Assembly: GCA_028288445.1 (NCBI GenBank) | Contig: JAQBNT010000082.1 | Span: 20,180-84,179, forward strand | Length of the DNA: 64,000 nt | Direction of reading: 5' to 3' | Source of the DNA: Hymenobacter sp. | GTDB taxonomy: Bacteria > Bacteroidota > Bacteroidia > Cytophagales > Hymenobacteraceae | Shown here: one piece after another, positions 24,584 to 36,450 of the stretch | How the letters are laid out: every line of letters begins with the position of its first letter | How positions within the stretch are numbered: position 1 is the stretch's first letter | The notes under the pieces: model-generated | Seen by the model: only the letters and a program-made list of their open reading frames with translations | Databases searched by the model: none | What the model was told of the DNA's origin: nothing | Made by a program: the position numbers and the translations under genes

Positions 24584-25252
24584 TTAATTCTCTGTTAAAT
24601 GACGGGTATTGGGAAGCCGGTGTCGTTCTTGAAGGACATCAATAACCTGTGCGGTGGTAACACCAGAGGCTTCCAGCAGCACAAGCAGATGATATAACAA
24701 ATCAGCGACTTCTCCAGGAAGTGTAGCATAACTACCGGAAACGGCATCTATTACCGTTTCCACAGCTTCTTCACCTACTTTCTGAGCAATTTTGGCTATG
24801 CCTTTATTGAATAATGAAACGGTATACGAAGTCGGTGCCCGTTCTGGAAAACGGTGCCGCTCGGCAATGAGACGCTCAAGGCTGGCCAGAAAGCCAATGG
24901 GTGCCGCTGGGGCAATCAATTCACCGGCCTGCACGAAACAGCTTACGGTGCCCCGATGACACGTTGGCCCCGCCGGAAGCGCCCGTATGAGAACAGTATC
25001 CGCGTCGCAATCGATGTGCGTGCTCACCACCGTAAGAAAATTACCGCTTGATTCGCCTTTGGTCCAAAGTCGGTTTTTCGACCTTGAAAAGAAAGTAACC
25101 CGTCCCTCCTGCTGCGTTTTGTCCCAGGCTTCGGCATTGACATAACCGAGCATCAAAACTTGTCCGGTATCAGCATCCTGAACAATTGCCGGGGCCAGAC
25201 CCGTGGTTGCATCGAACCGAAGGCCAATAGGAGATGTGGAAGCAAAAGACAT
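24584..25252 (-). CDS. hisI: Bifunctional phosphoribosyl-AMP cyclohydrolase/phosphoribosyl-ATP pyrophosphatase
   Basis: VNAEAWDKTQQEGRVTFFSRSKNRLWTKGESSGN and C-terminal HisE domain. Confidence 0.95.
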   Translation of the reverse strand: MSFASTSPIGLRFDATTGLAPAIVQDADTGQVLMLGYVNAEAWDKTQQEGRVTFFSRSKNRLWTKGESSGNFLTVVSTHIDCDADTVLIRALPAGPTCHRGTVSCFVQAGELIAPAAPIGFLASLERLIAERHRFPERAPTSYTVSLFNKGIAKIAQKVGEEAVETVIDAVSGSYATLPGEVADLLYHLLVLLEASGVTTAQVIDVLQERHRLPNTRHLTEN

Positions 25253-25282
25253 TTCAGAAGTAAAAAACGGTGAAATACAGAA

Positions 25283-26038
25283 TTACAGCCGAACGGCAAT
25301 ACCAGCCGCATGCAAGTATTGCTTTAGCGCGGGCAAAGCGGTTTCGTTGAAGTGAAAAATGCTGGCAGCCAAGGCCGCATCTGCCCCACCCGCTTCAAAA
25401 ACGGCCGTGAAGTCAGAGGGCTGACCAGCACCGCCGGAGGCGATTACGGGCACGGAGACTGCGTCAGAGACGGCACGGGTCAGTTCCAGAGCGAAGCCGG
25501 CCTTGGTGCCGTCGTGGCTCATGGAAGTCAGCAAAAACTCCCCAGCTCCCAAATCGGCTGCCGTACGGCACCAATCTACCGCCTGCCGGCCGGTGGGCGT
25601 CGTGCCAGCACGCGTCATTACCTGCCACTCGCCTTCTACCAAACGGGCATCAACGGCTACAACAACGCATTGGGAACCGAAACGGCGGGCCAAGTCCGAA
25701 ATGAAAGCCGGCCGAGCCAGAGCAGCAGAGTTGATGGAAACCTTATCGGCCCCGCTGAGCAGCAGCGCTTCAACATCGGCCACGGTGCTGATACCCCCAC
25801 CCACGGTGAAAGGAATGTCCAAAACGCGGGCCACATCCCGCACCAGCTCCGTGAGGGGCTGGCGGCGCTGATTGGTTGCCGTAATGTCGAGAAATACCAA
25901 CTCGTCGGCACCTTCGTGCGCGTAGCGGGCAGCCAGTGCCACAGGGTCGCCCGCATCGCGCAGCCCTTCGAACTGAATGCCCTTGACGGTGCGCCCGTCG
26001 CGCACGTCCAAACAGGGAATAAGTCTTTTCTTAACCAC
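25283..26038 (-). CDS. hisF: Imidazole glycerol phosphate synthase subunit HisF
   Basis: [32 protein letters not shown]. Confidence 0.96.
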
Positions 26039-26077
26039 AATGATAGCCGTTTAATGAATGTCGGGCAGCTGAATTTA

Positions 26078-26794
26078 CTACAGGAACCGCCGCAAATCGG
26101 CCAAGGATATGGTGCCTTCATAAAGCGCCTTGCCAATAATGGCCCCGTGCATGCCGGCTGCCGCGAGGAGTTCCAAGTCGCTGATTGTTGTGACGCCGCC
26201 ACTGGCGATAAAACGGGCCGCAGGGAATTGCTGCACCAGCGAACGATAGGTTGGCAAGGATGGTCCCTGCAGTAGGCCGTCTTTGCTCACGTCGGTACAG
26301 ATAAAGGTAGTCCCACCGACTGCCAGATAGTCGGCAATAAAGCCCGTCAGCGTCAGGACGCTCTGCTCGGCCCAGGCATTGATAACAATACGCTCCCCTT
26401 TATAATCGGCCCCCAGGAAAATGGTATCCGCCCCGTACTGCGCCAGCCAGGCTTGCACCGTGGCGGGCTCGCGCACGGCCAAGCTGCCGGCGGTGGCATG
26501 GGCAGCACCAGCAGCCAGCACCTGCGCCAGGGCAGCCTCGGTCTGAATACCGCCGCCGGCATCAATATCGAGGCTGGTTTGCCGGGCAATGGCTTCCAGC
26601 ACAGCCAGATTAACCGGATGGCCGGCGCGGGCACCGTCGAGGTCGACCAGGTGCAGGCGGCGCAAACCTGCATCTGCAAAACGCTGGGCAACGGCAATGG
26701 GGTCGGCATCATAGGTGGTTTGCCGGGCAAAATCGCCAGCGCTCAACCGCACGCATTGGCCATTGATGAGGTCGATAGCAGGAATAATTTCCAC
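26078..26794 (-). CDS. hisA: Phosphoribosylformimino-5-aminoimidazole carboxamide ribotide isomerase
   Basis: MEIIPAIDLINGQCVRLSAGDFARQTTYDADP. Confidence 0.96.
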   Translation of the reverse strand: MEIIPAIDLINGQCVRLSAGDFARQTTYDADPIAVAQRFADAGLRRLHLVDLDGARAGHPVNLAVLEAIARQTSLDIDAGGGIQTEAALAQVLAAGAAHATAGSLAVREPATVQAWLAQYGADTIFLGADYKGERIVINAWAEQSVLTLTGFIADYLAVGGTTFICTDVSKDGLLQGPSLPTYRSLVQQFPAARFIASGGVTTISDLELLAAAGMHGAIIGKALYEGTISLADLRRFL

Positions 26795-26828
26795 TGTGGT
26801 ATCGGTTTTCAGGATGAATTGACGCTGC

Positions 26829-27416
26829 TTATAGCGCCAGAAAATTGGCCAGAATACGCGTGCCTACAGGCCCGCTCTTTTCCGTGTGAAACTGCACACC
26901 GTAGAAGTTTTCGTGTTGCACTGCCGCACTGAATGGCCCGGGATGCGCGGCTTGGGCGATGGTATAGGGCCCCACGGGAGCATAATAGCTGTGCACGAAG
27001 TAGACGTGGTCGGCCTCGGTCAGCCCCGCCAGCAAAGGCCCGCGCATAGCCTGAAGGTTGTTCCAGCCCATGTGGGGAACTTTATGGGCTGTATCAGGGA
27101 CGAAGCGCTGGACCTGGAAGGGCAGTAGCCCGAGCATGGGGGTATCGTTTTCTTCGCTGTGCGTACCCAAAAGCTGCATTCCCAAACATATACCTAGAAA
27201 TGGCTGGGTTAAAGTCGGCAAAACCAGGTCGAGTCCCGCTTCACGCAAGGCTTGCATAGCCGATGATGCTTCGCCCTCGCCGGGAAAAAGCACTTTGTCG
27301 GCGCGGCGCAACACTTCAGGGTCAGCAGTCAGGACGGCTTGCGCCCCCAACCGCTCCAAGGCAAAGAGCACCGATTGCACATTTCCACCCTTGTAGTCTA
27401 CTACTGCAATTTCCAT
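26829..27416 (-). CDS. hisH: Imidazole glycerol phosphate synthase subunit HisH
   Basis: MEIAVVDYKGGNVQSVLFALERLG, PFLGICLGMQLLG. Confidence 0.96.
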   Translation of the reverse strand: MEIAVVDYKGGNVQSVLFALERLGAQAVLTADPEVLRRADKVLFPGEGEASSAMQALREAGLDLVLPTLTQPFLGICLGMQLLGTHSEENDTPMLGLLPFQVQRFVPDTAHKVPHMGWNNLQAMRGPLLAGLTEADHVYFVHSYYAPVGPYTIAQAAHPGPFSAAVQHENFYGVQFHTEKSGPVGTRILANFLAL

Positions 27417-27432
27417 AAGTAAAATCTAGTTA

Positions 27433-27482
27433 GTCCAAATGAATAATATCGTTTATTATTCATTTGGACAATAAACGATATT
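27433..27482. repeat. Overlapping inverted repeats in the hisB-hisH intergenic region
   Basis: Arms 27433-27448/27454-27469 (16 bp perfect) and 27445-27457/27470-27482 (13 bp perfect) share bases. Confidence 0.85.
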
Positions 27483-27497
27483 TTCCTAGCCTGCTGA

Positions 27498-28604
27498 CTA
27501 CAGAATTCCTTTGGTGCTGGGAATTGCGGCCGACTCGTCGCGCTGCAGCGCCATTTTAATGGCTTTGGCCACCGCCTTGAAAATGGCTTCAATCTTATGG
27601 TGCTCGTTGTCCCCTCGGCAGGAAATATTGAGCGTTGCCCGGGCATTATCGGTGAGAGACTTGAAGAAATGGAAAAACAGTTCGGTAGGCAAGTCCCCTA
27701 CCCGTTCACGCTTAAACTCGGCATCCCACACCAGCCAGGGCCGGCCAGAAAAGTCGATAGCCGCTTGGGCGAGAGCTTCGTCCATGGGCAGCAGAAAGCC
27801 GTAACGAGCCAGGCCGCGCTTGTCGCCCAAGGCCTGCGCGAAGGCAGTTCCAAGTGCCAAAGCTGTATCTTCCACAGTGTGATGCTCATCAATGTGCAAA
27901 TCACCTTTTACACTTATGTGTAAGTCGATTCCACTGTGGCGCCCAAGCTGCTCCAGCATGTGGTCGAAGAAACCTAAGCCTGTATGAATATCGGTTTGGC
28001 CGGTGCCGTCCAAATTTAAGCGGATGGCAATCTGGGTTTCATTAGTGTTGCGCTTAATAAATGCCACACGGGCCGGGTAGCGCAGGAAATGGTAGATGGC
28101 ATCCCAGCTAGTGGTGGTGAGGGCAGCGCGTGGGTCGGGCTCCTCTCCTATCAAAATGGATTGGCTGCCGAGGTTTTCCGCGAGCTGCACATCGGTGAGC
28201 CGGTCGCCGATGACGTAGGAGTTGGGCAGGTCATACTCGTTGGCAGGGTCGAGGTACTGGGCGAGCAGGCCCGTGCCGGGCTTGCGGGTGGGCAGGCCTT
28301 CGTGTGGAAAGCTACGGTCGATGTGCTCGGCAGCAAAATGCACGCCTTCATTCGATAGAATATCGCGCATCAACTGATGCGCCGGCCAGAAAGTCTCCTC
28401 CGGGAAGCTTGCCGTGCCCAGCCCGTCCTGGTTGGAAACCAGGACCAACTCGTACTCGGGCAAATCGCGGGCAATACGTGCCAACGCGCTGATGGCACCG
28501 GGCAGGAACTGAAACTTATCGGGCGTGAGGCCGTCAATTTGCTGGCTGGGCTGCGGCTCCACGAGAATGGTGCCGTCGCGGTCGATGAAAAGCGCCTTTT
28601 TCAA
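27498..28604 (-). CDS. hisB: Bifunctional histidinol-phosphatase/imidazoleglycerol-phosphate dehydratase
   Basis: N-terminal MKKALFIDRDGTILVEP HAD domain and C-terminal IGPD domain (GLGFFDHMLEQLGRHSG). Confidence 0.96.
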   Translation of the reverse strand: MKKALFIDRDGTILVEPQPSQQIDGLTPDKFQFLPGAISALARIARDLPEYELVLVSNQDGLGTASFPEETFWPAHQLMRDILSNEGVHFAAEHIDRSFPHEGLPTRKPGTGLLAQYLDPANEYDLPNSYVIGDRLTDVQLAENLGSQSILIGEEPDPRAALTTTSWDAIYHFLRYPARVAFIKRNTNETQIAIRLNLDGTGQTDIHTGLGFFDHMLEQLGRHSGIDLHISVKGDLHIDEHHTVEDTALALGTAFAQALGDKRGLARYGFLLPMDEALAQAAIDFSGRPWLVWDAEFKRERVGDLPTELFFHFFKSLTDNARATLNISCRGDNEHHKIEAIFKAVAKAIKMALQRDESAAIPSTKGIL

Positions 28605-28652
28605 CTCAATAAAATTAACGAGGTACGAGAAAAACGGGTGTTAGTCCGTTAT

Positions 28653-31067
28653 TTATAGGATGCGGAATGCGGCGACAGGAGCTTGGGTTTCGGCCCCGAT
28701 TTCGGTGAGGGCCTGAACCAGCTGCACGTTTTCGGCCGCAGTGCCAACCGTGAGGCGAAGGCAGCCGGCACAGCCGGGCTGGGTGGTGCGGTTGCGCACA
28801 ACAATGCCGCGGCGGCGGAGCTGGTCGTACACGGCGGTGGCATCAATGGTGAAGCGCACCAGCAGGAAGTTGGCATCGGAGGGGAAAATATGCTCCACGC
28901 TAGCCACCTGCCCCAATTTTTCAACCAACCAGCGGCGGCCTTCCAGCAGTTCGGCCCGCATTTCGGGCAGGCGCGGCGCGGCTGCCAGAGCAGCCAGCGC
29001 GTGCTGCTGGGTAGCGGCCGAGATGTTGTAAGGAGGCTTGATTTTGTCGAGGTACGCAATGAGTTGCGCCGACCCGTACGCCACGCCCAAGCGCAAACCG
29101 GCCAGGCCCCAGGCTTTGGAAAAGGTCTGCATAACTACCAGACGCGGAAATTCGGCCAGGCGCGTAATCCAGCTGGGCGCATCGGCAAAGTCGGCGTAGG
29201 CTTCGTCGACGACAACCAGGCCCCGGAAGCTGCGCAGCATGGTTTCGACGGCTTCCTGGGCGAGCAGATTGCCGGTGGGGTTATTCGGCGAGCACAGGAA
29301 AACCAGCTTGGCGTTGGAGGCGGCCAGTTTTTCGGCGGCATCGGCGGGCAGTTGGAAATCAGCCGTCAGGGGCAAGCGCTCCACGCGCACATCGTTGAGA
29401 TTGGCGGCTACCTCGTACATGCCGTAGGTGGGCGGGCAGATAACGATACTGTCCTGGCCCGGCGTACAGGTGAGGCGCACCAGCAGGTCGATGGCTTCGT
29501 CGGAACCGTTGCCGAGGAAAATCTGGTTTGGCGTTACGCCCTTAAGATGGGCCAAATCGGCCTTGATGGCACGTTGGTGCGGGTCGGGGTAGCGGCTGAA
29601 ATCATCCGGCCCGACGGAACCCAGGCTGTTTTCATTGGCATCGAGCATAACCGGGGCCATGCCTTCAAACTCGTCGCGGGCCGAGGAATACGGCTGCATC
29701 CGCTCCACGCTGGGCCGGATGAGCCCGGCATAGGGGTTTGTGGACGTTGCAGCGACGGTTTCTAATGAGGCAGAATTGCTAGTTAGCGCGGCCAGTCGCA
29801 GGGTGACGGCGCGGGCGTGCGCGGCCAGGCCTTCGGCTTCGGCCATGGTTTCCACCACCGGGCCGATGGCTTGCAGTCCCTGGGCCGACAGGCGCTGGAA
29901 GGTAATTTTCTTCACGAACGAATCGAGCGACACGCCGCTGTACTGGCGGGCGTAGCCGCTGGTGGGCAGCGTGTGGTTGGTACCGGAGGCATAGTCGCCG
30001 ACGGCTTCGGGCGTGAGGTGCCCCAGAAATACGGAACCCGCATTGGTGACCTGGGCGGCAAGGGCATCGGCGTTATCGGTGGCCAGAATGAGGTGTTCGG
30101 GCGCGTACTGATTGGAGAACTCCAGCATGCTGTTGGCATCCGGCAGCAAGATGGCGCGGCTGCTTTCCAAGGCTTGGGCGGCAACATCGCGCCGGGGCAG
30201 TTGGGCCAGTTGGCGGGCCACTTCGGCCCGTACCCGCTCCAATACCGCGCTGGAATCACTCAGCACCACCACTTGCGAGTCGGGGCCGTGCTCAGCCTGC
30301 GACAATAAGTCGGCAGCGACAAAAGCGGGGTTGGCGCTGGCGTCGGCGATGATTAACACTTCTGAGGGGCCGGCGGGCATGTCAATGGCCACCCCAAATT
30401 CGGCGGCGGCCAGTTGCTTGGCGGCCGTGACGTAGCGGTTGCCGGGTCCGAAGATTTTATCAACGGCCGGCACACTGGCCGTACCCAGCGCCAGCGCGGC
30501 CACGGCTTGCGCCCCGCCGGCTTTCACAACTTTATTAATGCCCAGCAACTGCGCCACGAATAGGATGACCGGGCTCACCGAGCCGTCGGCCTGCGGCGGG
30601 GTGCACACCACCACCTCGGGGCAGCCAGCCAGCCGGGCGGGCACGCCCAGCATCAGCAGCGTGCTGAACAACGGGGCCGAGCCGCCCGGCACGTAAAGCC
30701 CCACGCGCTGCACCGGCACCGCCCGGCGCGAGCATACTACGCCCGGCGTGGTTTCAACCCGCAATTCGGGCTCGCGCTGGGCGGCGTGGAAGGCTTCAAT
30801 GTTGGTTTTGGCCTGGCGGATGGCGGCTTGCAAATCGGCCGGAACCTGGGCGGCTGCGGTGGCAAACTCGGCTTCGGAAACTAGCAGGCTATTGAGCGTG
30901 GCTTTGTCGAGTTCGGCGGCTAAAGTCAAGAGTGCGATATCGCCACCGGCGCGAACCTGCTCGAAAATGGCCCGGACGCGGGCGGCTACCTGGGGCGCTT
31001 CGGCCGCGGCGGGGCGCTGCTGGAGCGCGGGCCACAGGCTGGGGTCGGGATAGGAATAGAATTGCAT
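28653..31067 (-). CDS. Fused histidinol dehydrogenase (HisD) - histidinol-phosphate aminotransferase (HisC)
   Basis: 804-aa ORF: N-terminal HisD (KAGGAQAVAALALGT, KIFGPGNRYVTAAK, SQAEHGPDSQ), C-terminal HisC (MLDANENSLGS, FLCSPNNPTGN, FSKAWGLAGLRLG), linked around LTSNSASLETVAATSTNPYAG. Confidence 0.92.
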   Translation of the reverse strand: MQFYSYPDPSLWPALQQRPAAAEAPQVAARVRAIFEQVRAGGDIALLTLAAELDKATLNSLLVSEAEFATAAAQVPADLQAAIRQAKTNIEAFHAAQREPELRVETTPGVVCSRRAVPVQRVGLYVPGGSAPLFSTLLMLGVPARLAGCPEVVVCTPPQADGSVSPVILFVAQLLGINKVVKAGGAQAVAALALGTASVPAVDKIFGPGNRYVTAAKQLAAAEFGVAIDMPAGPSEVLIIADASANPAFVAADLLSQAEHGPDSQVVVLSDSSAVLERVRAEVARQLAQLPRRDVAAQALESSRAILLPDANSMLEFSNQYAPEHLILATDNADALAAQVTNAGSVFLGHLTPEAVGDYASGTNHTLPTSGYARQYSGVSLDSFVKKITFQRLSAQGLQAIGPVVETMAEAEGLAAHARAVTLRLAALTSNSASLETVAATSTNPYAGLIRPSVERMQPYSSARDEFEGMAPVMLDANENSLGSVGPDDFSRYPDPHQRAIKADLAHLKGVTPNQIFLGNGSDEAIDLLVRLTCTPGQDSIVICPPTYGMYEVAANLNDVRVERLPLTADFQLPADAAEKLAASNAKLVFLCSPNNPTGNLLAQEAVETMLRSFRGLVVVDEAYADFADAPSWITRLAEFPRLVVMQTFSKAWGLAGLRLGVAYGSAQLIAYLDKIKPPYNISAATQQHALAALAAAPRLPEMRAELLEGRRWLVEKLGQVASVEHIFPSDANFLLVRFTIDATAVYDQLRRRGIVVRNRTTQPGCAGCLRLTVGTAAENVQLVQALTEIGAETQAPVAAFRIL

Positions 31068-31078
31068 GGCAAACCGGG

Positions 31079-31930
31079 CTAGGCAATCATCTTTTCAATG
31101 GGCAGCACGAGAATGCCTTCCGCGCCCACGGCTTTGAGCTGACTGGTGATGTGCCAGAACTCGTCCTCCTGCACCACCGACTGCACCGACACCCACCCCG
31201 CCTCGGCCAGCGGCGTGACGGTGGGCGACTTGATGCCGGGCAGCAGGCGGCGCACTTCGTCGAGGGCCGACACGGGAGCATTCAGCAGAATGTACTTGCT
31301 GCGCTTGGCGCGGCGCACGGCCTGCATCCGGAACTGAAGCTGCTCCAGCAGGTCCTGTTGCTCGGCGGTGAGGTTGGGCTGGGCAATGAGCACGGCCTCG
31401 GAACGGAAGACGGTTTCGACTTCGCGCAGGCCGTTGCCCAGCAAGGTCGAGCCGCTGCTCACGATATCGCAAATAGCCTCGGCCAGGCCAATGCTGGGCG
31501 CGATTTCGACCGAGCCGCTGATGGTGTGCAGGTTGGCCTGTACGCCGTGGTCGGCCAGGTAGCGGCCGAGGATGTTGGGGTATGAGGTGGCGATGTTCTT
31601 GCCTTGCAACGTCTCAATGGATGGGTAGGCATCGGCACGGGGCACGGCCAGGCTCAGGCGGCACTTGCTGAAACCAAGGGTTTCGACTTCCAGATTGGGG
31701 TAGCCGGCTTCCACCAGCACGTTCTGGCCCACGATGCCGAGGTCGGCCACGCCGTCTTTTACATAGCCGGGAATGTCATCGTCGCGCAAAAACAGGATTT
31801 CGAGCGGAAAATTGGTGGCTTCCGTTTTGAGCTTGTAGGAGGTACTCAGGAAATTAATGCCGCACTCGCGGATAAGGGCAAGGGAGTCCTCGCTCAGACG
31901 GCCGGACTTTTGAATAGCTAAACGGAGCAT
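31079..31930 (-). CDS. hisG: ATP phosphoribosyltransferase
   Basis: MLRLAIQKSGRLSEDSLALIRECGI; C-terminal regulatory domain present. Confidence 0.95.
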   Translation of the reverse strand: MLRLAIQKSGRLSEDSLALIRECGINFLSTSYKLKTEATNFPLEILFLRDDDIPGYVKDGVADLGIVGQNVLVEAGYPNLEVETLGFSKCRLSLAVPRADAYPSIETLQGKNIATSYPNILGRYLADHGVQANLHTISGSVEIAPSIGLAEAICDIVSSGSTLLGNGLREVETVFRSEAVLIAQPNLTAEQQDLLEQLQFRMQAVRRAKRSKYILLNAPVSALDEVRRLLPGIKSPTVTPLAEAGWVSVQSVVQEDEFWHITSQLKAVGAEGILVLPIEKMIA

Positions 31931-32040
31931 GAAATGGGGTAACTGGCGGGCGCGGCCCCGACGGGGCACAAGCATTGGATATAGCCCTAACGCAATTTAG
32001 ACGGCGTATGGCTGAATTTCCCGCAAAGTGAAACGGTGAA

Positions 32041-32103
32041 GCCCGGAGCACGCACCCCGGACGCGGCGGTGGAGACTCGGGCAACCGGTGCTAGGCTAGC
32101 ACC
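32041..32103 (-). promoter_or_regulatory. Candidate his attenuator hairpins
   Basis: Two stems: GGTGCTAG-C-CTAGCACC (32087-32103) overlapping the leader stop codon and GTCCGGGGT-GCGT-GCTCCGGGC (32041-32062), between the leader peptide and hisG. Confidence 0.5.
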
Positions 32104-32221
32104 CGGCACACAACCCGGCCTCCCACAGATGGTGGTGGTGATGACCGTGGCCCACAACAGCCCAGCTGCCAGCCGAAGCGGGAAGCGAAACGAGCGAAAA
32201 CGAAAAGGCGGGGGTGGTCAT
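32096..32221 (-). CDS. Putative his operon leader peptide (41 aa, contains HGHHHHH)
   Basis: MTTPAFSFSLVSLPASAGSWAVVGHGHHHHHLWEAGLCAGC encoded directly after a promoter and directly upstream of hisG. Confidence 0.75.
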   Translation of the reverse strand: MTTPAFSFSLVSLPASAGSWAVVGHGHHHHHLWEAGLCAGC

Positions 32222-32229
32222 TGCGGCTG

Positions 32230-32259
32230 CAAAGGTAATTCGGAAAGCCAAACGGGCAA
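32230..32259 (-). promoter_or_regulatory. Bacteroidota sigma-type promoter for the his leader/operon
   Basis: Minus strand TTG (32259-32257) - 19 nt - TACCTTTG (32237-32230), matching the -33 TTG / -7 TAnnTTTG consensus. Confidence 0.7.
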
Positions 32260-32310
32260 GTCCGGCCAAAGGTTTCGAATCAGGGGCCGGCATTCTGAAT
32301 CAGCCAAACG

Positions 32311-32339
32311 AAAACGGGCGGACATTGCGGCCCGCCCGT
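32311..32339 (-). terminator. Terminator of the TonB-dependent receptor gene
   Basis: ACGGGCGG ... CCGCCCGT hairpin followed by T-rich minus-strand sequence. Confidence 0.6.
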
Positions 32340-32366
32340 CAGGACATTTCAGCAACAACACCAAGG

Positions 32367-34970
32367 TTAAAATCGCGCAATCAGGCGCAGGTTCACGATG
32401 CGCTGCGACAGGTAGTTAGGCACCGAGTAGGTCACGCCATTCACATCCTGCAGGTAGCTGTAGCCGGCCACGTTATTGGCGGCAAATACGTTGAGAATTT
32501 CCAGGCCCAACCAGAGGCTTTCGAAGCTGTAGAAATGGGCTTTGGGGGCGTTGTTGTTTTTCAAGCCCACTACTTTGGAGAAGCCCAAATCGACGCGGTT
32601 GTAGCTGCGGGTGAGGTCGGCGGTGCCGCGCAGGTCGGGCAAGTTGGGCGGGCTGAACGGCAGCCCCGTGCCGAACACAAAGTTCACATAACCGCGCACC
32701 GAAGGATTATTGGGCAGGTGGTCCTGAAAAAAGATGCCCACGTTCAAGCGCTGGTCCTGCGGGCGGCGGATGTAGCCTTTGGGCTCGCGGCCGGTCACTT
32801 TGCCGTCGGCATTCACCACATTCATGGAGTCGCCGTCCACGTTTTCGCGGGTGGTGAGCACGCCGAGGCTGAACCAGGATTCGGCCCCTTTCACAAACTC
32901 GCCGCTGAGGCGGGAATCGAAGCCGGCGGCGTAGGCGCGGGCGTTGTTCTTGGCGAAGTAGCGCAGGCGCACGTTGTCCACGTCGTAGGGCACCACGTCG
33001 GTGAGGTACTTGTAGTAGGCTTCGGCCGAAAACTTGAACGGCCGGCCATACTGCTGGAAGCTGATTTCCTTACCCACGATGAAGTGGTAGGATTTCTGGG
33101 CGCGCAGCTCCACGTTCAGGTTGGCGGTTTGAATCAGGGGCTGGCTGGGGTCGGTGCGGTCGCCGGCCTGGTTGCGCAGCTCGCGGTAGAACGGCGGCTG
33201 GTAGTACACGCCCACGGCTGCTTTGAACGAGCGGTTGGGATGCGAGCGGCTGATTTGCGAGAACTGCACCCGCGGGCTGATGACCAGCTGGCCGTTGGTG
33301 GTCCAGTAATGCGCCCGCGCCCCGTAGGTGAGCGTCGTTAGCGAATCGAGGTTCCAGGTATCCTGCACGAAGCCCTGGGTGCGGGTGCTTTCCAAGGTCA
33401 GGTCCGACAGCAGCCGGGTCCGGCGGGCATCGGGCACGAAATCGGCCGAGTCGGCGAAGCTGTACTCGTCGAGCTTGTCGGTGATTTTCTCGCGGCCGAT
33501 TTTCGCGCCCCAGCGCACGGTGTGGTTGGCGGCGGGCGTCCAGCGGCCCCGGGTTTCGGCCGTAAAAATCCGGGCCGTGAGGTTGTTGCGCGAGTGCTTG
33601 AACTGCGAGCCGATGTCGCGCTGGCGCACGGCCTGGTTGAAATCGGGCGAGGTGGGGTCGCGGTTGATTTCGGCAAAGGTGTAGGCCGCTTCCACGTCGC
33701 GGTACTCAAACTCGCGCGAAATCAGGGCCGAGCCCAGCAGCTCCATTTGCAGCTTCGAGGAAAAGTCGTGCTTGAGGTTCAGGCCCGTTTGGTAGGTATC
33801 GAACTGCATCCGCTCGCGGCCATCGTAGGCGATAAATACACGAGTGAACTGGTTGGTACCGGTCGAGAACGTGGCCTGGCCGGTTTCGGGCGAGAAGCGG
33901 TAGTCGTTGTGCGCCACCACGCCGAGCAGGCCCAGTGTGGTACGCTGCAGGTCGTCCTTCTTGCCCAGACCGATATTTACAAAAGCCTGCGCGTCGTAAA
34001 AGGTGGGGTTGTAACCGCCTTGGGCCTGCTTCAGCGAGCTCAGCACGTACTGCGCATTCTTGTAGCGCACCCCGGCCAGGTAACTCACGCGGCCATTGGC
34101 CGAGCGGGCTTCGGCGTGGGCCGCGCCGCCCACCAGGCTGGCCGTGAGCGAAGCCGCGAACTTCTCGGGCGTCTTGTAATCCACGCTCAGCACCGAGGCC
34201 AGCTTGTCGCCGTACTTCGGCTGCCAGCCGCCGCTGCTGAATTCCACCTGCTTCACCAAATCGGGGTTGATAAAGCTCAAACCTTCCTGCTGCGCCGAGG
34301 TAACAAGAAACGGCCGGTAAATCTCGAAGCCGTTGACGTACACCAGGTTCTCGTCGTAGTTGCCGCCGCGCACGTTGTAGGTGCTACTCAGCTCGTTATT
34401 CGACACCACGCCGGGCAACGTCTTGAGAATGGCGTTGAAATCCCCAAACGGCGAGGGAAGCTCCTTGGCCGAGCGCGGGTCAATGCGCGTGATGCTCACC
34501 TGCTCGCGGGTATCGGCTTGATTGGAGCGGCCCGTCACGCGCACATTGCTCAGCGCCTTGGTATCAAGGCGCATGGTTAGGCGTAAAGGCGTACCCGCAT
34601 CGGCGGGCAGCCGGAGCGGCTGCCGCAACGTGATGAAGCCCAACCGGCGCACCACCAACACCACATTCTGGCCCGAAGTTGGTACCCGCACGGGCAGCGC
34701 AAACGCGCCGTCGGCATTGGTATTGGTGCCGCCGGGCTGGCCCTCCACTCCCACTGCCGCCAGTTCCAGCGGCTGCCCGCTGGCATCACGCAGCGTACCA
34801 GTAAGCATTACCAGCGCGCCGGGCGTGGTCTGCTCCGGGCTGGTGGTCTGCGCTTGAACCGTAGTTGCCGACAAAGGCCCCAAGGCCAAACCGCCCAGCA
34901 AGACCAGACGGCATTCAACTTTCCTAAAAACTGGCACTGACGGCAACAACAAGGTAGCGGATTGTTTCAC
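32367..34970 (-). CDS. TonB-dependent receptor with carboxypeptidase-like regulatory N-terminal domain
   Basis: GTLRDASGQPLELAAVGVEGQPGGTNTNADGAFAL and plug domain NAILKTLPGVVSNNELSSTYNVRGGNYDENLVYVNGFEIYRP. Confidence 0.92.
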   Translation of the reverse strand: MKQSATLLLPSVPVFRKVECRLVLLGGLALGPLSATTVQAQTTSPEQTTPGALVMLTGTLRDASGQPLELAAVGVEGQPGGTNTNADGAFALPVRVPTSGQNVVLVVRRLGFITLRQPLRLPADAGTPLRLTMRLDTKALSNVRVTGRSNQADTREQVSITRIDPRSAKELPSPFGDFNAILKTLPGVVSNNELSSTYNVRGGNYDENLVYVNGFEIYRPFLVTSAQQEGLSFINPDLVKQVEFSSGGWQPKYGDKLASVLSVDYKTPEKFAASLTASLVGGAAHAEARSANGRVSYLAGVRYKNAQYVLSSLKQAQGGYNPTFYDAQAFVNIGLGKKDDLQRTTLGLLGVVAHNDYRFSPETGQATFSTGTNQFTRVFIAYDGRERMQFDTYQTGLNLKHDFSSKLQMELLGSALISREFEYRDVEAAYTFAEINRDPTSPDFNQAVRQRDIGSQFKHSRNNLTARIFTAETRGRWTPAANHTVRWGAKIGREKITDKLDEYSFADSADFVPDARRTRLLSDLTLESTRTQGFVQDTWNLDSLTTLTYGARAHYWTTNGQLVISPRVQFSQISRSHPNRSFKAAVGVYYQPPFYRELRNQAGDRTDPSQPLIQTANLNVELRAQKSYHFIVGKEISFQQYGRPFKFSAEAYYKYLTDVVPYDVDNVRLRYFAKNNARAYAAGFDSRLSGEFVKGAESWFSLGVLTTRENVDGDSMNVVNADGKVTGREPKGYIRRPQDQRLNVGIFFQDHLPNNPSVRGYVNFVFGTGLPFSPPNLPDLRGTADLTRSYNRVDLGFSKVVGLKNNNAPKAHFYSFESLWLGLEILNVFAANNVAGYSYLQDVNGVTYSVPNYLSQRIVNLRLIARF

Positions 34971-34996
34971 GGGGCTAAAACGAGCAGGCCGCCCAA

Positions 34997-35710
34997 CTAT
35001 TGCCGGCGGCCGGTGGCCACCGCGTCCATTTCCAGGCCGGCCAGGTGGTCGCGCAGCCGGGCCAGCGTGGCTACTGGCCCCTCCGGTGCGCTGAACACGA
35101 AGTTTCCCGCTACCAGCACATCGGCCCCGGCTTCTACCAGCGGGCCCGCGTTGTCCATGTTCACGCCGCCATCCACTTCAATCAGCGCATCCGAGCCGGT
35201 ATCAAGCAGCAGCTCTTTTAGCATGGCCACTTTTTTCAGCGTGTTCGGAATGAAAGCCTGCCCGCCGAAACCCGGATTCACCGACATCACCAGCACCACG
35301 TCGAGGTCGGCGGCAATGTCTTCGAGCAATGACACCGGCGTGGCCGGGTTCAGAGCCACGCCGGCCCGGCAGCCCAACTGCTTGATTTGCTGCACCACAC
35401 GGTGTAAGTGCGGGCAGGTTTCGTAATGCACCGTGATGCTGCTGGCCCCCGCGTCGCGGAAAGCGGCCAGGTAGTGCTGCGGCTCCTCAATCATGAGGTG
35501 CACGTCGATAGGCTGCTTGGCGTAGCGGGCCACGGCCTGCAACACGGGCAGGCCAAATGAAATGTTGGGCACGAACCGGCCGTCCATCACGTCGAAGTGC
35601 AGCCAGTCGGCGGCGCTGTTGGCGAGGCGCTCGGTTTCGGCTTGCAGGTTGGCCAGGTCGGCGGCCAGAAACGAGGGGGCCAGCAAGGGCGTGCGGCGGG
35701 GTGCATTCAT
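34997..35710 (-). CDS. rpe: Ribulose-phosphate 3-epimerase
   Basis: LAPSFLAADLANLQAE, WLHFDVMDGRFVPNISFG, MSVNPGFGGQAFIP. Confidence 0.95.
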   Translation of the reverse strand: MNAPRRTPLLAPSFLAADLANLQAETERLANSAADWLHFDVMDGRFVPNISFGLPVLQAVARYAKQPIDVHLMIEEPQHYLAAFRDAGASSITVHYETCPHLHRVVQQIKQLGCRAGVALNPATPVSLLEDIAADLDVVLVMSVNPGFGGQAFIPNTLKKVAMLKELLLDTGSDALIEVDGGVNMDNAGPLVEAGADVLVAGNFVFSAPEGPVATLARLRDHLAGLEMDAVATGRRQ

Positions 35711-35853
35711 GGGCACGAAGATACACTACCGTGCGCTCCTTAAATACGGGCAGGCCCTCACTTCGGCGCTACTTTTGTGGCGGGCCCGCGGGCCTGCTTC
35801 CGTTCCCCGTGCAGTGCTTGCCGGGCGGCTTCTTTTCACCTTCTCGTTTCTCT

Positions 35854-36450
35854 GTGCCTCACCTCGTTCCCCTCCTTATTCGCGGCATCAACAACCTCTC
35901 CGATGCGCGCTACTGCGCCGGCATGGGAGCCGACAAACTAACCTTTATTCTCGACCCGGCCCTGCCCGGACACCTCGACACCAAGGCGGTAAAAGAGCTG
36001 GCCGGCTGGATTGCCGGAGTTGAACTGATAGGTGAGTTCGACCAACTCAGCGCGCATGAAATTAATGCGATATCTGCCGAGTGCAACCTGGATGCGGTGC
36101 TGCTACGCACCCCACGGACCGACGAAGAGCTAGCCGAAATTGCCCCGCCGGTGTATCTGGAACTGGCAATAGATTCTATTTCCTTTGCTCAGCCCCTACC
36201 CACTTCGCCCGTTGGTTTTTTACTGGAATTACCCACGGCCGAAACACCGGAAACCATCAAGGCTCTGCAAAATATCAGCGCCCAGAAACCGTTGTGGCTC
36301 GGCCCCGGCCTGCACCCCGACCGTGCCCGAATGCTGGCCACTTCCCTCCCATTGGCCGGCCTCGTATTTCCCTCCGGCAACGAAGTGAAGCCCGGTCTGC
36401 GCGATTTCGACCAGCTTGAAGCGGTATTTGAGGCCCTGGAAATCGAATAA
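35854..36450 (+). CDS. Phosphoribosylanthranilate isomerase-like protein
   Basis: LIRGINNLSDARYCAGMGADKLTFI resembles the TrpF N-terminus; divergent elsewhere; GTG start inferred. Confidence 0.6.
   Translation: MPHLVPLLIRGINNLSDARYCAGMGADKLTFILDPALPGHLDTKAVKELAGWIAGVELIGEFDQLSAHEINAISAECNLDAVLLRTPRTDEELAEIAPPVYLELAIDSISFAQPLPTSPVGFLLELPTAETPETIKALQNISAQKPLWLGPGLHPDRARMLATSLPLAGLVFPSGNEVKPGLRDFDQLEAVFEALEIE

Follow-up and report, generated by a model that had tools for sequence, protein, structure and literature searches.

A ribosome-mediated transcription attenuator of the his operon very probably lies ahead of hisG on the minus strand of the window, the 64,000-nucleotide stretch of Hymenobacter sp. 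DNA analysed here, as judged from sequence comparison among relatives and from predicted RNA folds. A preliminary description had proposed that a leader rich in His codons controls the operon by ribosome stalling, and this reading is supported by conservation of the leader, by a covarying helix (P1) that the description lacked, by an alternative pairing exclusive with that helix, and by position directly before the operon. The transcription start site, the stalling, the termination and the response to histidine are parts of the model that we infer.

The leader locus and the operon behind it

The elements on the minus strand follow one another in the order upstream-gene hairpin, promoter, leader ORF, P2 over the leader stop, P3, U-rich tract, and hisG. 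The SusC/RagA-like gene upstream has its own terminator-like hairpin with UUUU (GGGCGGGCCGCAATGTCCGCCCGTTTTCGTTT, 32306..32337), which suggests that the leader promoter drives a separate transcript. The candidate promoter, of Bacteroidota type (32230..32259, minus strand), reads TTG at 32259-32257, N19, and TACCTTTG at 32237-32230, and the leader ATG follows 8 nt on, at 32221. The leader ORF (32096..32221, minus strand) encodes a predicted peptide of 41 amino acids, MTTPAFSFSLVSLPASAGSWAVVGHGHHHHHLWEAGLCAGC, and its putative regulatory codons, HGHHHHH, with six His in seven codons, occupy 32129..32149. Two hairpins stand between this ORF and hisG, namely GGTGCTAG-C-CTAGCACC, which overlaps the leader stop, and GTCCGGGGTGCGTGCTCCGGGC at 32062-32041. 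Promoter, ORF and hairpins had all been described before, and direct reading of the minus strand finds each of them in place.

Of 111 family leaders, 107 have a -7-like box, taken as TAnnTTTG or one of the looser forms permitted by our script, 6-25 nt 5' of their ATG; the distance is 6-10 nt in the window's clade and 16-25 nt in other Hymenobacteraceae leaders. The earlier remark that the ATG sits so near the promoter as to make the mRNA nearly leaderless is correct as to the distance, but the arrangement is not special to this leader, because TACCTTTG-N5-10-ATG is common in the genome, with 35 sites, mostly ahead of ordinary genes, versus 8 for the reversed pattern. These sites suggest that many mRNAs in the window's Hymenobacter lineage may be near-leaderless.

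The operon behind the leader is complete, and all of it is encoded on the minus strand. It comprises hisG (31079..31930, start ATG at 31930, NCBIfam TIGR00070 and TIGR03455, with relatives aligning from 31930), a hisD-hisC fusion of 804 amino acids (28653..31067, TIGR00069 over residues 31-424 and TIGR01141 over residues 451-790), and bifunctional hisB, hisH, hisA, hisF and hisIE (24584..28604, by NCBIfam matches). Its product, histidine, is the amino acid of the leader's codon run, as is the rule for attenuators of this class. An in-frame ATG at 31975 was rejected as the hisG start; it is not conserved, and most alignments with relatives set in around codon 14-16 of the longer reading. The hisD frame is open past the hisC junction in 27 window-clade genomes (L001-L027, the window's own included) and in none of 16 other loci checked, and the fusion appears to mark the window's clade.

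Conservation of the His-dense leader

DNA upstream of hisG was taken from some 110 Hymenobacteraceae genomes, plus 60 that represent other families within the order and phylum, and was searched for ORFs that have an ATG, contain at least four His in seven codons, and end 40-300 nt before hisG. Such an ORF occurs in 108 of 113 Hymenobacteraceae loci. Outside the family, 7 of 40 loci in the same order and 14 of 20 in the rest of the phylum have one, while the antisense strand of the identical stretches yields none in any of the three sets. The alignment of upstream regions from relatives, which the preliminary description had put forward as one check on its proposal, thus bears it out both in the His run and in a covarying stem, P1.

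Leaders in relatives are 29-47 amino acids long. Those of the window's clade end in HHHHHLWGAGLCAGC and close variants; elsewhere in the genus the last residues before the stop are HHHxHGHHSSF or HHHHL, and in other genera HHHHSSxGEE or HHFHHSS. The His codons persist through synonymous CAT/CAC changes, and His is still encoded where the part downstream is read differently or stops, so the translation of His is the conserved feature. The only close relative without a leader upstream of hisG is L029 (genome G018), where the leader RNA is found on a different contig, at its end (C161:20-96), owing to a rearrangement or to a break in the assembly.

A covarying helix behind the His codons

Just behind the last His codon is an 11-bp helix, P1, which encloses P2 and does not figure in the preliminary description. 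Its 5' strand, segment 1 (GGAGGCCGGGT, 32113..32123, minus strand), starts 8 nt past the first base of the last His codon, and its 3' strand (GCCCGAGTCTCC, 32071..32082, minus strand) is assigned from the sequence and the alignment of relatives. P2 (CCGGGTGCTAGCCTAGCACCGG, 32085..32106, minus strand), an apical hairpin that includes the leader stop, is the first hairpin of the earlier account, which proves to be merely the tip of the P1 rod. Across the window's clade and its sister groups the consensus of P1 is GGAG[AG]C-CGGGY with RCCCG-n-G[TC]CTCC.

Among 36 distinct sequences, 99.2% of P1 cells are paired, with two-sided changes at four pairs; one pair varies as GC in 16, GU in 12 and AU in 8. 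None of 500 shuffles reaches the covariation score of P1, and sliding the helix by 1-3 columns leaves 42-58% of cells able to pair. One divergent genome, L049, has several compensatory P1 changes on its own. When 120 genomes of the genus are searched with a covariance model of the rod, 52 yield exactly one copy each, most of the others carrying another design; wherever the position of hisG is known the copy is just upstream of it, G018 excepted.

The other design, seen in further Hymenobacteraceae (L033-L081 and L104-L123), is a near-invariant structure at the leader stop, CATTCCTC-loop-GAGGAAT, followed in most cases about 12 nt past GAGGAAT by CATAT[TC]G[AC]CCC and kept across several genera. 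Such conservation of sequence is unusual for an attenuator.

A competing pairing between segment 2 and P3

The 3' strand of P1 together with its linker forms segment 2 (GCCCGAGTCTCCACCGCCG, 32064..32082, minus strand), the proposed antiterminator strand, identified by its alternative pairing with P3 and by masked folds. Segment 2 is conserved beyond what pairing within P1 needs, and it is able to form 17 pairs with the two arms of P3. In 25 sequences this pairing is kept in 85.4% of cells, versus 33-48% in slid controls. Judged by shuffles and slides, its covariation amounts to 10 cells with two-sided changes, including A-U to G-C in the linker, versus 4.4 +/- 1.7 in shuffles, of which 1 in 500 reaches 10; these changes fall in only three pairs and may be of common descent, one and the same change being present in L015, L017 and L022. 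Compared with its own shuffles, segment 2 forms 13.8 versus 10.1 cross pairs with P3, an excess that is only moderate because both partners are G+C rich.

Masking the 5' strand of P1 during folding stands in for a ribosome halted at the end of the His run, and was applied to 28 close relatives. Unmasked, P3 has a predicted probability of at least 0.5 in 20 of the 28, while the remaining 8 do not favour it. With segment 1 masked, the probability drops to 0.15 or less in 15 of those 20, the other five not switching fully, and in most of the relatives that switch, segment 2 takes both arms of P3. For the window's own sequence the predicted probability of P3 goes from 0.80 unmasked to 0.0 masked. 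A simulated ribosome at the leader stop codon, inside P2, gives mixed fold predictions. P1 and the antiterminator are thus predicted to be mutually exclusive helices that share segment 2, with P1 placed where a stalled ribosome would block it, an arrangement characteristic of attenuators of this class.

The preliminary description had placed the switch elsewhere, in pairing of GCACC, from the 3' arm of its first hairpin, with GGTGC in its second. The window's sequence permits that pairing, but of 28 close relatives only about 5 have GGTGC in their second hairpin, and the pairing was therefore rejected as the conserved switch; the predicted stalled-state folds employ the 3' strand of P1 instead.

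P3 and the tract behind it

The terminator-like hairpin P3 (GTCCGGGGTGCGTGCTCCGGGC, 32041..32062, minus strand, -13.8 kcal/mol), the second hairpin of the earlier account, is followed by an interrupted U-rich tract (TTCACCGTTTCACTTT, 32025..32040, minus strand), and the earlier mention of a weak U-tract is accurate. RNAalifold run on the whole group-A alignment missed P3 because of alignment gaps, and its arms were then anchored by hand; pair counts give P3 covariation support similar to that of the antiterminator but weaker. A hairpin stands at the place of P3 in most close relatives, roughly 93-124 nt upstream of hisG for the greater part of the clade. The tracts behind it vary from window-like ones to clear runs of U, CTTTTTCTTCATTTTT for example.

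Textbook terminators come after the His leader in distant Bacteroidota, e.g. AAACCCGTTTGAGTAAATCAAACGGGTTT-TTTCTTTTT. In one of these loci, L172, the stretch CTCAAGCG behind the His codons is, by eye, complementary to the terminator 5' arm, CGTTTGAG. Four Flavobacteria-like loci (L158, L172, L173 and L174) have a stretch behind the His run that seems by eye complementary to the terminator 5' arm, most clearly in L172, in a layout simpler than the window's. The window's own genome also carries, at locus L184 (C144:12546-13907, reverse strand), a Trp leader, MNSTRISQAWWWQLRNIGPACLCAL, with its codon run WWW, and a textbook terminator, AAAAAGCCCGGCCCATCAGCCGGGCTTTTTT, before a trpE-like gene; no branched-chain amino acid leader was seen in the same genome before leuA, ilvD or ilvB.

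Proposed mechanism

Transcription would start a few bases 5' of the leader ATG, with a ribosome trailing RNA polymerase. Were His-tRNA ample, the ribosome would clear the His codons and be released, P1 would fold around P2, and P3 would form next, its U-rich tail stopping transcription ahead of hisG. Were His-tRNA scarce, the ribosome would stall on the last His codons and cover segment 1; segment 2 and its linker, left free, would then pair with both arms of P3, no terminator would form, and the operon would be transcribed.

Alternative explanations

The same sensor might work through a different output, namely Rho-dependent termination, polymerase pausing or translation of hisG in place of an intrinsic terminator at P3. 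We think this unlikely on the whole, yet for the window's leader Rho or pausing has to be taken seriously as a rival: the U-tract after P3 is interrupted there, and several close relatives have weak P3 hairpins or tracts broken by C. Against an output through hisG translation, P3 is too far from the hisG start, which lies about 110 nt beyond its end, to hide that start directly. Against other outputs generally, the position of the hairpin is kept in most close relatives, several of which have good U-tracts, and the textbook terminators of distant relatives and of the genome's own trp leader make attenuation by intrinsic termination the natural reading.

A second kind of explanation would deny the RNA its role altogether. 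The leader could be a working small peptide rich in His and Cys, for instance a metal binder, with the RNA folds incidental, and in most window-clade genomes the His run is indeed followed by LWGAGLCAGC, which has two Cys. This tail, however, is not conserved outside the clade, where leaders end in HHHHL, HHHR, HHSSF or HHFHHSS, and even among close genomes it is toggled by a single base. In one sister group the leader stops after HHHHL, its codons reading CTG TAG GAG; the window's clade has CTG TGG GAG at the corresponding position, and there the ORF continues through the helix. Whether the base makes TGG or TAG differs between closely related genomes, and P1 is kept throughout. In the hisG tree L028 (TGG) falls into one clade with L030, L091 and L092 (TAG) at support 100/99, which implies more than one switch of the stop. 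Since the helix is kept while the stop moves, the tail is most readily accounted for as a side effect of the RNA; we rejected a functional leader peptide as the candidate product, and regard that reading as very improbable. That a His-rich ORF and hairpins should have come together before hisG by chance is scarcely credible: G+C-rich intergenic DNA does readily make hairpins, and segment 2 beats its shuffles only moderately, but the absence of His-dense ORFs on the antisense strand, the covariation of P1 and the single RNA copy per genome speak against it, and for the His cluster and P1 a chance origin is already refuted by the comparative data. The relatives that differ in their stop are natural experiments, in which one base shifts the stop by ten codons without a change in the helix, and they could serve to test what the terminating ribosome contributes.

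Comparison with known systems

Attenuation through a leader peptide is a classic form of control that is known chiefly from Proteobacteria, and the enterobacterial his leader peptide has a run of seven His codons. The window's system resembles the enterobacterial his attenuator (RF00514, E. coli and Salmonella hisL) in having a His leader before hisG, competing helices, a terminator-like hairpin and the logic of stalling, but differs from it in its helices, in a longer leader peptide near the promoter, in a weak U-tract, and in its six His in seven codons. At window positions 28000-36000, with E up to 5, there was no Rfam match near the leader, and RF00514 and RF01692 were both absent; RF00514 scored once in a distant relative, L177, weakly and below threshold. 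Bacteroid-trp RNA sits before trp genes and has Trp codons. It is a candidate cis-regulatory RNA of Bacteroidetes (RF01692; PMC2864571), and RF01692 matches neither the window nor the trpE locus of the same genome. In bacilli, His leader peptides encoded by a short ORF with a His run precede hisZ and hisS (PMC2965389); the window shares the short ORF and its His run with these, while phylum, genes and RNA differ.

Closest in phylum and gene is Flavobacterium psychrophilum, for which clues for leader-peptide attenuation before amino-acid operons have been published, along with a structured element before hisG that is Rfam-negative and conserved in Flavobacteriaceae (PMC9723704). The idea of leader-peptide attenuation in Bacteroidota has therefore already been touched by that work; the Flavobacteria-like loci that we sampled, however, have a textbook terminator and not the P1 rod. 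In the literature searched we found no paper on a his attenuator in Hymenobacter, and earlier predictions in subscription journals are possible.

Whether the his leaders of Bacteroidota make up one phylum-wide attenuator class, with no relation to the proteobacterial one in sequence or fold, we regard as evenly balanced. In such a class the ribosome would enter almost at the RNA's 5' end, and selection would act on the RNA behind the His codons; the stop would drift, lying right after the His run or ten codons later in the rod, and whole RNA designs would be swapped between relatives while the His run was kept. For the window itself, the analysis offers a specific his attenuator in Bacteroidota with strands defined for mutation and an RNA model present in no library searched: as a mechanism it is ordinary in principle, and as an RNA it is new.
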